From a virus, in IMG/VR virus record IMGVR_UViG_3300032753_001573, positions 62,001 through 126,000 of that record: DNA of 64,000 bases, one strand, 5' to 3'. Positions 32,769-60,540 of the stretch are shown here, piece by piece. The position numbers and the translations under genes are program-made. The notes beneath the pieces are model-generated. The model was given only the letters and a program-made list of their open reading frames with translations. It was not told where the DNA came from and made no database searches. How positions within the stretch are numbered: position 1 is the first letter of the stretch; each line of letters starts with the position of its first letter.

Positions 32769-33104
32769 ATGTTGCTATCAAAGACCATAACACAAGGTGA
32801 CATCGCCAGCCTCAAGCTGATAACTGGTGAAGAGATAATTGCTAAAGTAACCGACATCAATGCAGAATCAATGACCATAACTAAACCCATGCAGATTAGT
32901 ATTGGAATGGATGAACGCACAAGACAAGTTGGTATTCAAATGGTTCCATATTTCCTATTATGTGCAGAATCAGATGCTAAACTAACTATTAAGAATTCTC
33001 ATATCATAACATCAACGCTAGCTAACGAGCAAGCTAAGTCTGGTTATATACATAATACAACAGGTTTAACGTTGGCATCTGGTAATGGTGGTTTGACATC
33101 ATGA
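32769..33104 (+). CDS. Sm-like domain protein
   Basis: A 111-aa protein with DIASLKLITGEEIIAKV at residues 11-27, the Sm1-type strand pair (compare LxxGxxxxGxV), followed by a long insertion and a short second strand. Small Sm-like proteins are frequent in T4-like marine phages, and an RNA-binding ring is inferred. It follows ATTGGAGACAAC and overlaps the agmatinase start by 4 nt (ATGA). Confidence 0.68.
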   Translation: MLLSKTITQGDIASLKLITGEEIIAKVTDINAESMTITKPMQISIGMDERTRQVGIQMVPYFLLCAESDAKLTIKNSHIITSTLANEQAKSGYIHNTTGLTLASGNGGLTS

Positions 33105-34018
33105 TAGAAAAACCATTTCAGGGTAAAAGGACGTTTTGTAAGATCAGCGATCAAAACTTTCCAAATCATACCCATGCTGTAATTGGTATAGGTGTAGATA
33201 GCGGAACTACTTTCCGTAGTGGATCGAGGATGGCACCAACGGCGATCAGGGAAGCTAGCATGATGCTTACTGATGGAGTCAATGATGCATTCCCTGTTGA
33301 TATCAAGAAACACTGTGTTGATCTTGGTGATCTAGCCGTAACTAACGGTAATACGTCTAAAATGCTTGAACAGGTAGAAAACAGCGTAAGAAATACTATA
33401 GCATGGAAAAAGCATCCTGTTATACTTGGTGGTGAGCATACCATAACGTTGGCTGCATTAAGAGCTATGAATTCTAGCCATGGTAAGTTGGCTGTAATTC
33501 ATTTTGATGCACATTGCGATACGTGGAGCACACATTTTGACGAACCCATCGGACATGGTACTTGGTTATATAATGCAATCACAGAGGAATTGGTAGATCC
33601 CGCCAAGGTTGTCAGCATAGGGATACGTAGTCCTGCTGACCATAAGTCTAGGATGTTCTTGCATGAAAATGGTGGCACTACATTTACAGCTAGATATGCT
33701 AACCAAAATATGGATGCAGTTGTCTCTAACATCAAGAAATTGGTAGATGAATCACCTTGCTATCTCACATTTGACATAGATTGTCTAGATCCGGCATATG
33801 CTCCTGGTACTGGAACTCCCGAAGTAGGAGGACTCTCTACCATGTGGGTTCTAGAATGTTTGGAAAAATTGTATGATATTGATTTTGTTGGCATGGATTG
33901 TGTAGAGGTAGCTCCCGCATACGATCATTCAGACATAACATCTCTAGCGGCAGCTACAATATGTTGGACCTATCTCAGTATGGTGATTCATAAGCAAAAT
34001 GCCAGTTATAATACATAA
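33101..34018 (+). CDS. speB: Agmatinase/arginase-family ureohydrolase
   Basis: A 305-aa enzyme with all binuclear manganese motifs in order: GGEHTIT (first His), FDAHCDTW (D-A-H-x-D) and FDIDCLDPAYAPGTGTPE (D-x-D). Agmatinase makes putrescine and urea from agmatine. Putrescine neutralises packaged DNA in T-even phages, and this could raise its supply; arginase or guanidinobutyrase activity cannot be excluded. It is coupled to the Sm-like gene. This is an auxiliary metabolic gene uncommon in phages. Confidence 0.85.
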   Translation: MIEKPFQGKRTFCKISDQNFPNHTHAVIGIGVDSGTTFRSGSRMAPTAIREASMMLTDGVNDAFPVDIKKHCVDLGDLAVTNGNTSKMLEQVENSVRNTIAWKKHPVILGGEHTITLAALRAMNSSHGKLAVIHFDAHCDTWSTHFDEPIGHGTWLYNAITEELVDPAKVVSIGIRSPADHKSRMFLHENGGTTFTARYANQNMDAVVSNIKKLVDESPCYLTFDIDCLDPAYAPGTGTPEVGGLSTMWVLECLEKLYDIDFVGMDCVEVAPAYDHSDITSLAAATICWTYLSMVIHKQNASYNT

Positions 34019-34426: not shown

Positions 34427-34497
34427 GTGCTTGTAGTCTAATGGTAAGATATGTGACATCCCAGACACGATGAGAGGTTCGACTCCTTTCCTAGCAC
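34427..34497 (+). tRNA. tRNA-like gene with abnormal anticodon arm
   Basis: The 5' half is canonical: acceptor strand GTGCTTG, TA at positions 8-9, D-stem GTCT/AGAT and D-loop AATGGTA. The T-loop TTCGACT is canonical on a stem AGAGG/CCTTT, extendable by one pair. The 3' strand CTAGCAC pairs with the 5' strand with one T-T mismatch, and no CCA is encoded. The anticodon arm does not fold normally: TGTG/CACG leaves a 10-nt loop ACATCCCAGA, and the variable loop is very short. CCC is the most likely anticodon if it is charged. Could be a degenerate or specialised tRNA. Confidence 0.55.
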
Positions 34498-34514
34498 AAT
34501 TTAATTATAGGGTC

Positions 34515-34543
34515 TTTACATTCTCATAAACCTGTGCTATAAA
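34515..34543 (+). promoter_or_regulatory. Sigma70 promoter overlapping a late box, before tmRNA
   Basis: TTTACA (34515-34520), 17-bp spacer, TATAAA (34538-34543). The -10 is part of a perfect late box TATAAATA (34538-34545), so the tmRNA could be transcribed both early and late. Confidence 0.75.
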
Positions 34544-34550
34544 TAAAATA

Positions 34551-34886
34551 GCTGTTGTTGATACCAACGGAGATAGCTGGATCGGAAGCGGGAGGCAGAG
34601 CCCGCCCACTCCACCAAAGATACATCGTGAGGGGCTAGTTATACGGCGCATTTGAACAAAGTATAACCCACTGTGTAATAGTGATCATAAAGACAGTGAG
34701 CGGTGTATCTTTGATGGGGTGGAAACAGGATCGACGGACGTTGAAAAGGTTGGAGTAGATAGCCGTGCGCAAGCGACGTACCGCAAGAAAACTATAAGTG
34801 TCAACGATAACGTGGCACCTTATGAGATGAGCCTCGCGGTTTGACCTCAATGGGTTTGGTTTAGCCTGGAAACAGAATTAAACCAA
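34551..34886 (+). ncRNA. ssrA: Circularly permuted (two-piece) tmRNA
   Basis: The acceptor piece comes first and ends with CCACTCC-ACCA at 34606-34616 after a GCGGG/CCCGC arm. An intervening sequence follows, flanked by AAGATACA and TGTATCTT. The coding piece begins GGGGTGGAAACAGGATCGACGG-like at 34716; GGGGTGG pairs with CCACTCC. The tag frame after ACTATAAGT reads VNDNVAPYEMSLAV and stops at TGA 34842-34844. Permuted tmRNA is typical of alphaproteobacteria. tmRNA rescues stalled ribosomes and tags products for ClpXP; here the resume codon is GTC instead of the usual GCA, and the tag ends LAV instead of LAA. Confidence 0.88.
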
Positions 34887-34912
34887 AGAGGGCGGGAAAC
34901 CGTCCTCTTTTT
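34887..34912 (+). terminator. tmRNA terminator
   Basis: AGAGGGCGG and CCGTCCTCT form a 9-bp stem (one G-T pair) around a GAAA tetraloop, followed by a T-run. Confidence 0.85.
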
Positions 34913-34969
34913 ATTGACAAATATATCAATGATATCATAAACTACTATTGTTACATAGAAATTGTAACA

Positions 34970-39011: not shown

Positions 39012-39947
39012 GTGAAAACTCCAACTTTAGGAGAATTGTTGGCTAATAGTCAACGTGTGCTAATCGGCGTTAGTGGTGGTGCAGACTCTATGGCATTGCT
39101 ACATATGATTCACCAAGAACGCGACAATTTAGCTAAAGATTTCAAAGTTCTGCATGTAGATCATCAGATTAATCCTAATAGTGCTGCATGGGCCAAGCTT
39201 GTGGAAGATTATTGCGCTAGCATTGACATGCCCTGCGAAGTGGTCACAGTTGACGTGTCGATGTGGGGAAATAATTTAGAGCAAGCTGCTCGAAAAAGCC
39301 GTTATGATGCATTTTCAAAACAAGATTGCGATACCATTGTGCTAGCTCACCACGCTGACGATCAGGTAGAAACATTCTTTCTCAAGTTGTTCAGGGGTAG
39401 CGGTCCCAAAGGGTTGAGGTGCATGAGCCCAAATTCCCCCTGTTGGTTTGACGAGAGCAAACGAGTCGTGCGACCATTGCTAGACATGTCTAAATCGCAA
39501 CTTGTTGAATATGTTCATGACAATAATATCCCTTATGTTACAGATCCCAGCAATGTTGATATCAGCTATGATCGCAATTGGATTCGACAGTGTCTAGTAC
39601 CAACCATTCAAGAGCGCAATGAAATTGCAGACATCAACATCCGCAAAGCTGCTGCTATTCAAGAAGAAGCTTATGGGTTGATGACTGATCTAGCTCGTAT
39701 TGATCTTGATAATGTAAAGATGTCAAATGGTGATTTAGATTGGAAGAAGCTGCGTTTGCTGAGCGTGCCACGAGTTAAAAATTTAGTGATGTTTGTTTGT
39801 GCAGAAAACAACATTATTGATGTCAGTATTCACCATGTTGAAGCCTTTGCTAGAGGTCTCATCAATGCAGACTACGACAGCAAGAATGAGCTAAGGCTAA
39901 GAGACTTTCACATGTATAAGCGCGGTCGCCGCGTTATCATTGACTGA
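39012..39947 (+). CDS. tilS: tRNA(Ile)-lysidine synthase-like PP-loop ATPase
   Basis: A 311-aa protein with the PP-loop SGGADSMALL near residue 19, HVDHQINPNS near 50, and LAHHADDQVETFFLKLFRGSG near 115, all diagnostic of TilS. TilS changes C34 of the CAU anticodon of a minor tRNA(Ile) to lysidine so that it reads AUA. GTG start after GAGAGG. A phage copy would help an A+T-rich phage that uses AUA codons. The host enzyme or phage tRNAs elsewhere are the possible substrates. Confidence 0.88.
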   Translation: MKTPTLGELLANSQRVLIGVSGGADSMALLHMIHQERDNLAKDFKVLHVDHQINPNSAAWAKLVEDYCASIDMPCEVVTVDVSMWGNNLEQAARKSRYDAFSKQDCDTIVLAHHADDQVETFFLKLFRGSGPKGLRCMSPNSPCWFDESKRVVRPLLDMSKSQLVEYVHDNNIPYVTDPSNVDISYDRNWIRQCLVPTIQERNEIADINIRKAAAIQEEAYGLMTDLARIDLDNVKMSNGDLDWKKLRLLSVPRVKNLVMFVCAENNIIDVSIHHVEAFARGLINADYDSKNELRLRDFHMYKRGRRVIID

Positions 39948-57303: not shown

Positions 57304-58569
57304 ATGAATATGGCAGGACAGAACAAGATCCTACGTCAATGCAGCTTCTGCGGCAAAAACCAGCTACAAGTGCAGAAACTAATCAATGGCAATGATGTGT
57401 ATATTTGCAATGAATGTGTAGATCTTTGTCACAGCATATTGTCGCAGGATGACGACTCAAAGCCGTCAAAGACTGACAAACGTATGATACCAGAGGTTAT
57501 CAAATCCTATTTGGATGAAAGAGTAATAGGCCAAGATACAGCAAAGACTATATTGAGTGTAGCAATTTACAACCACCTACAAAGGGTAGAGAATCCTATT
57601 GTAGACGGAGTAGAATTAGATAAGAGCAACCTATTGTTCATTGGACCCAGTGGTAGTGGTAAGACTTATTTGATACAAAATGTCAGTAAGCTACTTGATA
57701 TTCCTTTTGTAATTATCGATGCTACCAGTCTAACTGAAAGTGGTTATGTTGGATTAGATGTTGAGGATTGTATAGCACGTTTATATCAAGCATCAGGTGG
57801 GGATATTGATAAAACTCAGCGTGGCATTGTTTATATAGACGAGATTGACAAGAAAGGTCGTAAAGGAGAGAACGCTAGTATTACTCGCGATGTAAGCGGC
57901 GAGGGTGTGCAGCAAGCTCTTCTGAAAATGATCGAAGGTTGCGAAGTCAAAGTGCCTCCGCAGGGAGGTCGCAAGAATCCTCACGGCGAATATGTAACAG
58001 TGGATACCAAAAACATCTTGTTTATATTGGGCGGAGCGTTTGTTGGTATTGAAGATGTTGTTAGCAAGCGTCTAGATACCAATAACACTGGTATAGGATT
58101 TATGGCCACAATGCCTGGTGATAAACCAGACCCAGAACAAGTTCGCAAGATGATGAGGTCTGTAAAACATGAGGATGTAGCTAAGTTTGGTTTGATTCCA
58201 GAATTAATTGGACGTCTACCAATTATTGTTCCGTTTGATCACCTAAAAGAAGAGGATTTGATCAGAATTCTAACAGAGCCTAAGAATGCTGTAGTCAAGC
58301 AATTCCAAAAACAATTTGAACTTGATAATGTTAGGTTAGAGTTTAGGGATGCTGCATTGAAAGCGATAGCAGAACAAGCTATCGAAAAGAAAACTGGTGC
58401 TCGAGGATTGCGTAGCATCATAGAGAACATCCTGTTGCCCGCGCAGTTTGAATTACCGTCTCTGCAGGACAAGGGTGTAAGTACCGTGGTGGTCACGGAA
58501 AGCTGCGTCACTGATGGTCAGGACCCAGTTAAAATTTACAGGAGTGAAACAGAAGTTGCCAATAATTAA
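57304..58569 (+). CDS. clpX: ClpX unfoldase, full length
   Basis: A 421-aa complete ClpX. The N-terminal C4 zinc domain (C13, C16, C35, C38) binds adaptors. Walker A is GPSGSGKT (114-121), pore-1 loop GYVG (147-150), Walker [10 protein letters not shown], arginine finger in [11 protein letters not shown] and sensor 2 in GARGLR. The ClpP-docking loop GIGF (263-266) is kept, so it can dock on host ClpP. The loop that in E. coli reads RKH and contacts the ssrA tag terminus reads RKN (223-225). It overlaps infC. Phage tmRNA, ClpS and Hsp20 are also encoded nearby. Confidence 0.93.
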
Positions 58570-59134
58570 TGGTGTTGCGAATCCTAGAGACCGCAGGCAG
58601 GCTGGAGATCTAATAAAGGATCAATATGCTGCAAATTATAACATACGACATCCGCAAGTTCGGTTAGTTGGAGATGATGGTTCTAATCATGGTGTCATAG
58701 ATACAAAACAAGCTATTGCTATGGCTCAGTTAGAAGATTTGGATCTAGTGCTAGTAAATACTTCTGCAAATCCTCCTGTCGCAAGGATATGCGACTATAA
58801 CAAGTTCATCTATGAGCAAAAGCGACACAAGAAAGAGCAAGATCGCAAGCTCAGAGAGCATGCCATCGTTGTCAAAGAAATACAGTTGCGACCCAGCATC
58901 AGCAATCATGATCTAGATATCAAGCTACAGCATGCTCGAGAATGGTTGGCAGACAATTGCAAGATCAAGATTGTGGTCAAATTCAGAGGGCGTGAGATGG
59001 CCTACAAATCCAAAGGATTTGAGATGATCAACAACTTTGTTGACAAGCTCGGTTGCAAGATTGAAAAGGCACCCGATATGAATAACAATACTTTGATAGC
59101 TATGGTAGCACCTGGTGCCAAAACTACCAAATAA
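58556..59134 (+). CDS. infC: Translation initiation factor IF-3
   Basis: About 192 aa. It has the N-terminal domain block VRLVGDDGSNHGVIDTKQAI (compare VRLIGxDGEQxGVVS), LVLVNTSANPPVARICDYNKF, and the C-terminal domain KEIQLRPSISNHDLDIKL and VKFRGREMAYKSKGFEMI. No good ATG exists. TTG 58556 has AGGAG 11 nt upstream, and the frame is open to 58514 inside clpX. IF-3 binds the 30S subunit and checks start codons. With phage bS21 it could bias ribosomes to phage or leaderless mRNAs. Confidence 0.85.
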   Translation: MPIINGVANPRDRRQAGDLIKDQYAANYNIRHPQVRLVGDDGSNHGVIDTKQAIAMAQLEDLDLVLVNTSANPPVARICDYNKFIYEQKRHKKEQDRKLREHAIVVKEIQLRPSISNHDLDIKLQHAREWLADNCKIKIVVKFRGREMAYKSKGFEMINNFVDKLGCKIEKAPDMNNNTLIAMVAPGAKTTK

Positions 59135-59194: not shown

Positions 59195-59506
59195 ATGAGC
59201 GACGATATTTTCTTTGGCAAACGCGGCATATCAGTTAAGGTTTTTAATAATAACATTAACGGTGCCCTAACGCAGCTTAAACGCAAGGTTAATGCCGAAG
59301 GCATCAATAAGGAACTACGCAAGCGAGAATGCTTTGAACCAAACACTGCAAAACGTAGGCGCAAGTTGGCTGAAGCACAGATACGTTGGAAGAAGAAGTA
59401 CGATCAAATTATGGAAGTACCTAAGCCCAAACGCAAGCTGAAGAAGAGGCAGTTGAAACAGCAGCAGGCGTCTGCAAATAATTCTTCTACAACTGTTCAG
59501 ACATAA
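59195..59506 (+). CDS. rpsU: Ribosomal protein bS21-like
   Basis: A 103-aa, strongly basic protein. GISVKVFNNNINGALTQLKR, then KELRKRECFEP and AKRRRKLAEAQIRWKK match bS21 along its length (compare VxVxENEPFxxALRRFKR and the Arg/Lys-rich helix). It has an extra Lys/Gln-rich tail of about 25 residues. bS21 sits by the anti-Shine-Dalgarno of 16S rRNA. Phage copies are known from large and pelagic phages and probably replace the host protein. Confidence 0.88.
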   Translation: MSDDIFFGKRGISVKVFNNNINGALTQLKRKVNAEGINKELRKRECFEPNTAKRRRKLAEAQIRWKKKYDQIMEVPKPKRKLKKRQLKQQQASANNSSTTVQT

Positions 59507-60228: not shown

Positions 60229-60540
60229 ATGGTAGAGACCAAGAATGATGTAGTTGTAGCTGTCATTGAAAAGGTTGCCATGGCTCCTCCTAGAATGTGG
60301 AATGTGGTATTATTCAATGATGAAAAGACCACAATGGAATTTGTAGTTCTTGTTCTGATGCAGATCTTCTATAAGAGTTTTGAAGAAGCTCAAGATATCA
60401 TGATGAGTATACATGAGAATGGCAAGGGAGTTGCTGGCACTTATTCACTTGAGGTAGCATCTGCTAAACGAGACGACACTCTCAGCGTAGCAAGAACTAA
60501 TGGATTTCCACTCGTAGCAGAAATTGAGCCTAACGAATGA
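60229..60540 (+). CDS. clpS: ClpS N-degron adaptor
   Basis: A 103-aa protein of normal ClpS length. PPRMWNVVLFNDEKTTMEFV matches the substrate-binding block (Asn-Asp pair and gatekeeper Met), and SIHENGKGVAGTYSLEVA carries the conserved His. ClpS delivers N-end-rule substrates to ClpA and also inhibits ClpA use of ssrA-tagged proteins. No ClpA is in the window, so it would work with host ClpA or steer tagged substrates towards ClpX. It overlaps the next gene by 4 nt. Confidence 0.88.
   Translation: MVETKNDVVVAVIEKVAMAPPRMWNVVLFNDEKTTMEFVVLVLMQIFYKSFEEAQDIMMSIHENGKGVAGTYSLEVASAKRDDTLSVARTNGFPLVAEIEPNE

Follow-up and report, generated by a model that had tools for sequence, protein, structure and literature searches.

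A rare valine-ended tag in a phage-encoded permuted tmRNA, and a phage ClpX clade with asparagine at the H230 position

The question raised by this locus is whether a phage tmRNA with a deviant proteolysis tag and a ClpX altered at a tag-contacting residue, both encoded by one phage, form a matched pair. The DNA analysed (the window) is a stretch of 64,000 nucleotides comprising bases 62001–126000 of an IMG/VR virus record of 155,688 bases. An earlier note on this DNA had proposed that tag and ClpX together make up an orthogonal system, which would route phage-tagged products to phage ClpX on host ClpP or protect them from the host proteases. Our approach was to define the tmRNA gene with Rfam covariance models, to compare its tag with those of other phages and alphaproteobacteria, and to determine whether the ClpX change and the tag change occur together in related genomes.

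The gene was matched on the plus strand by the alpha_tmRNA model RF01849 at 34511–34887 (90.2 bits, E 3.7e-23; cut-off 50) and by the permuted model RF04321 at 34554–34844 (67.6 bits; cut-off 47). The earlier note had thus placed it correctly except for its boundaries, 34551–34886, which are slightly off. ARAGORN reported no tmRNA here, so the gene is easily missed. The features of the locus are as follows.

34515 to 34543, plus strand: putative sigma70-type promoter of the tmRNA gene (TTTACA, 17-nt spacer, TATAAA), at a conserved position
34544 to 34616, plus strand: tRNA-like 3′ part, which comes first in this permuted gene
34588 to 34592 and 34601 to 34605, plus strand: T stem GCGGG/CCCGC, enclosing an 8-nt T loop at 34593 to 34600
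34606 to 34612, plus strand: acceptor 3′ strand CCACTCC, followed by ACCA at 34613 to 34616
34617 to 34715, plus strand: intervening segment, presumably cut out in processing, whose ends form a long stem extending the acceptor helix
34716 to 34884, plus strand: 5′ part of the mature tmRNA, with the acceptor 5′ strand, D-loop region, tag frame, and 3′ hairpin
34800 to 34844, plus strand: tag reading frame, resume codon to stop, placed by covariance-model alignment
About 34886 to 34912, plus strand: rho-independent terminator of the tmRNA gene, with a 10-bp stem, GAAA loop, and T run

The acceptor 5′ strand GGGGTGG (34716–34722) bears the G of the G3-U70 pair and forms all seven pairs with CCACTCC, that one included; the T stem forms five of five. 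These acceptor pairs covary across related tmRNAs, the paired bases changing together, and the tRNA-like part as a whole is formed far better than expected by chance. The fold of the precursor across the intervening segment had a z-score of −4.70, and none of 200 shuffled sequences was equally stable; the terminator region (34840–34915) folded at −30.8 kcal/mol with a z-score of −4.18. Because a generic promoter scan did not list the exact TTTACA/TATAAA pair, the putative promoter rests on conservation: in an alignment, the window elements coincide with TTGACA...TATAAATA at the same place ahead of most related phage tmRNAs. We conclude that the gene is a permuted, two-piece tmRNA of the alphaproteobacterial type.

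One structural feature, absent from the earlier note, is unusual. The T loop, AGGCAGAG, has 8 nt on its 5-bp stem in place of the usual 7, a length shared by all 38 parsed bacterial tmRNAs and by 20 of the 23 others from phages; we treated the 7-nt loop as a usual feature of permuted tmRNAs and not as a strict criterion. The three other phage tmRNAs without the 7-nt loop form (L101, L103, and L104) have a longer T stem, so that within the ClpX clade described below the T arms differ in length, the window having the 8-nt loop and these three the longer stems.

A weak tRNA-like sequence lies directly upstream of the tmRNA at 34427–34497 on the plus strand (22.4 bits; cut-off 29), and ARAGORN found no tRNA in the whole 155-kb record. 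Just upstream of the tmRNA, 33101–34018 encodes an arginase-family protein (PF00491, E 8.2e-82). The product of 39012–39947 is a PP-loop ATPase (PF01171) that may modify tRNA in the manner of TtcA or TilS.

Alignment to the covariance model placed the resume codon at 34800–34802, where it is GTC and the alpha consensus is GCA. The tag is VNDNVAPYEMSLAV, 14 codons followed by the stop codon TGA (34842–34844); its last sense codon is GTT (34839–34841), so that it ends Leu-Ala-Val and lacks the canonical C-terminal Ala-Ala. The GTC resume codon and the LAV end given in the earlier note were thereby confirmed. Another resume codon or frame yielding LAA was considered and excluded by this alignment together with the aligned relatives.

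To assess how unusual this tag is, tags were read at the 3′ end of each covariance-model hit for 23 other phage and 39 alphaproteobacterial tmRNAs, the latter set omitting four loci that were unreadable from their hit ends (L336, L354, L360, and L364). All 39 alphaproteobacterial tags start with alanine and end AA. Among the other phage tags, 22 of 23 end AA, mostly as LAA, and one ends AVA (AANDNAPFLQAVA, in L102); a single one, that of L104, has a non-alanine resume codon, GAC. The tag therefore does deviate from a near-universal ending, as the earlier note had stated. The IMG/VR collection was also searched with the pattern ATAANTGYNAAYGAYAAY...YTNGCNGTNTRA, which overlooks divergent tmRNAs such as that of Sinorhizobium phage Phosso. 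The NDN...LAV form matched no other contig and the NDN...LAA form at least 120, among which all 80 readable LAA tags had a GCN resume codon. From the survey and these counts we concluded that valine at both ends of a tag is very rare.

The protein proposed as the partner of this tag, and the genes near it, are listed next.

57304 to 58569, plus strand: phage ClpX, 421 aa, identified by Pfam domains zf-C4_ClpX and AAA_2 and by its motifs
58514 to 59134, plus strand: translation initiation factor IF3, adjoining clpX
59195 to 59506, plus strand: homologue of ribosomal protein bS21 (PF01165, E 1.1e-13)
60229 to 60540, plus strand: phage ClpS (PF02617, E 4.9e-28)

The ClpX is complete and has the zinc finger, the AAA+ domain, GYVG, the GIGF loop, and the SITRDV pore-2 loop. 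In the alignment with the E. coli protein, GGRKHPQ corresponds to GGRKNPH in the window, RKN being residues 223–225; the other tag-contacting residues, pore-1 GYVG and pore-2 SITRDV, are the same as in E. coli. The earlier note was thus accurate in describing an RKN loop beside intact GYVG and GIGF motifs, and in pointing to a place where ClpX is known to read the ssrA tag. H230 of the E. coli protein contacts the tag, and substitution H230A raises the KM for GFP-ssrA from 1.3 to 140–240 μM (PMC7652416). Human ClpX has Leu both at this position and at T199, and it leaves ssrA-tagged proteins undegraded (PMC7652416).

RKH was present in 79 of 80 bacterial ClpX proteins. The only bacterial RKN protein found, from a Bathymodiolus symbiont, occurs with the tag ANDENYSMALAA, which ends LAA. 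In a tree of 93 ClpX sequences, 20 distinct phage RKN proteins (that of the window included) and one KKN protein formed a single clade with support 97/86. All 21 have Asn at the H230 position, and they include the proteins of Phosso and Agrobacterium phage Atu_ph07; a search for more members added one close relative, L381, on a 14.7-kb contig. The simplest account is that Asn arose once in this phage clade. As judged from the tree, it is an old, independent, clade-wide trait, older than LAV and not peculiar to the window phage.

To determine whether RKN goes with LAV, we looked for permuted tmRNAs in 50 phage records that encode ClpX. Twenty-three contained one, 10 of them in the RKN clade, with the following tags.

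ANDNVAPSYALAA, in L003/L099, the record nearest to the window ClpX that has a tmRNA: ends LAA
ANDNVAFEEVRLAA, in one record: ends LAA
AANDNAAFENELLAA, in two records: ends LAA
ANDNVAFEETALAA, in three records: ends LAA
DNDNIAFGDMLLAA, in one record: ends LAA
ANDNVSTKVALAA, in Phosso: ends LAA
AANDNAPFLQAVA, in L102: ends AVA

Nine of the 10 therefore end LAA. The Phosso tmRNA (L318, PV764938.1, 349596–350198, minus strand; 113 bits) lies in a stretch without an annotated feature. Because RKN coexists with LAA in these nine phages and in the bacterial RKN case, RKN does not go with LAV. The same counts and the clade-wide Asn removed the matched pair as the leading reading, and with it the coupling that the earlier note had suggested. 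The departures are nonetheless not scattered: among the 63 tags, non-AA ends (LAV and AVA) and non-alanine resume codons (GTC and GAC) were found in the RKN clade and nowhere else. There, 2 of 11 tags have a non-AA end, against 0 of 52 elsewhere (Fisher p ~0.03, uncorrected for kinship); against RKH phages alone the p value was 0.20, and both tests, which ignore kinship, are descriptive only. This confinement would fit a relaxed or broadened reading of the tag in the clade and is a weak hint, as the genomes are few and related.

Hsp20 and cyclophilin genes lie near clpX, along with those for IF3 and bS21. The phage ClpS reported in the earlier note was recovered, and its N-degron pocket residues are largely kept (NDE...MEFV...H), the Asn-Asp, Met, and His being common to solved ClpS proteins in an alignment from the PDB. 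ClpS was present in all 16 phage records searched, mostly within a few kilobases of clpX. ClpP was found in 7 of 15 phage records, namely all those longer than 240 kb, and not in this 155-kb fragment; open reading frames with a Clp_N domain (ClpA-like, 737–781 aa) were present in four of nine records, and SmpB in none of 15. Because near-whole genomes of relatives encode their own ClpP, the suggestion that the phage ClpX works on host ClpP is doubtful, and the system may use a phage ClpP.

The explanation that we think probable is that the window phage, a jumbo phage whose relatives include Atu_ph07, AP-J-162, and Phosso, encodes a working two-piece tmRNA that uses host SmpB and carries a lineage-specific, likely weaker tag, with no matched change in ClpX. 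The G3-U70 pair makes it probable that the tmRNA is charged with alanine by the host enzyme. Because SmpB was absent from the phage records searched, host SmpB would most likely bring the tmRNA to stalled ribosomes, which it would free during infection while adding A-VNDNVAPYEMSLAV to the unfinished proteins. For E. coli ClpXP, exchanging the final alanine of ssrA for another residue increases KM and changes Vmax little, and GFP bearing the AAV tag variant is broken down more slowly than its LAA-tagged counterpart (PMC9382460); weaker binding of LAV to an E. coli-type ClpX is therefore to be expected. The two lineage-specific changes from alanine to valine, at the tag end and at the resume codon, would then most likely yield a weaker or slower degron. 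The tmRNA would belong to a phage kit for translation and quality control that comprises IF3, bS21, Hsp20, cyclophilin, ClpX, and ClpS, to which relatives add ClpP and ClpA-like proteins. Three observations count against this explanation: the 8-nt T loop could impair function, decay of the gene could account for the two deviant tag codons, and the restriction of non-AA tags to the RKN clade hints at some link between RKN and the tag.

An unlikely alternative is that constraint on the tag was relaxed, either after ClpX acquired Asn or because the tmRNA was kept for ribosome release and not for destruction of its products, so that tag ends and resume codons drifted. The clade-restricted departures described above agree with it, and phage DS6A, whose tmRNA has no tag frame (PMC11915505), provides a precedent. 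These departures are, however, few and come from related phages, most of the clade has retained LAA, and the rest of the window tag frame is well kept (NDN, LA).

It is improbable that the RKN ClpX of the phage prefers LAV and that phage-tagged products are thereby channelled to phage ClpXP, out of reach of host ClpXP and ClpA. This orthogonal pairing is suggested by the presence of two departures from the norm in one phage, by the contact of H230 with the tag in E. coli ClpX (PMC7652416), and by the fact that both non-AA tags belong to the RKN clade. Nevertheless, nine RKN relatives, L003/L099 and Phosso among them, keep LAA, as does the bacterium with an RKN ClpX, and no change is seen at the pore-1 and pore-2 positions in contact with the last residue and its carboxylate. 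Moreover, RKN originated long before LAV, which argues that it is not the partner of LAV. A variant likewise has only a small chance of being correct. In it, Asn in this ClpX clade loosens or shifts the reading of the C-terminus, and the window phage has gone further than its relatives by changing its tag to LAV; phage ClpXP, its ClpP encoded in the part of the phage genome not covered here, would handle the tagged products, and host ClpXP would spare them.

A sequencing or assembly error hiding a true LAA tag, or a decaying gene with an inactive RNA, is very improbable. In its favour, a single C-to-T change separates each deviant codon from one for alanine (GCC and GCT), the T loop is unusual, and neither a DNA search of phages nor the IMG/VR tag pattern supplied a second close copy confirming LAV. 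Against it, an otherwise clean RNA is unlikely to contain two errors within one 45-nt frame, and all of its other elements are intact: the acceptor and T stems, the precursor stem, the position of the promoter, and the terminator.

A limited search of the open-licence literature found no description of a valine-ended tag or of a clade-wide change from His to Asn in phage ClpX. The valine-ended tag is rare, with no other in the set that was read, and a whole clade of jumbo-phage ClpX lacks the histidine that E. coli ClpX needs for the standard tag, yet occurs alongside standard tags. Together these two facts allow a natural test both of degron reading by ClpX and of the purpose of phage tmRNAs, be it protein destruction or simply the freeing of ribosomes.

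The window tmRNA shares with the alphaproteobacterial permuted tmRNAs (RF01849/RF04321) its gene order, acceptor stem with G3-U70, encoded CCA, precursor stem, position of the tag frame, and ANDN-like tag start; it differs from them in the valine at the resume codon and tag end, in the 8-nt T loop, and in lying on a phage contig. Permuted tmRNAs were already known in phages. That of Melnitz is likewise of the alphaproteobacterial type, but the Melnitz ssrA gene has a glutamine riboswitch (PMC9004378), and no riboswitch reached the Rfam cut-off within the window. Also close are the jumbo phages Atu_ph07, AP-J-162, and Phosso, in all of which clpX stands next to IF3 as it does here (PMC11242549; PV764938.1). 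For AP-J-162, a tmRNA, six Clp open reading frames, and clpX beside IF3 have been described (PMC11242549), and that phage also has bS21. Phosso shares the tmRNA, and both Phosso and Atu_ph07 have ClpS and an RKN ClpX 52–55% identical to that of the window; Phosso differs in its LAA tag end. The tmRNA of phage DS6A, which inhibits the endogenous tmRNA in E. coli (PMC11915505), resembles that of the window in departing from the standard degradation role, whereas the tag frame that DS6A lacks is present and complete in the window.
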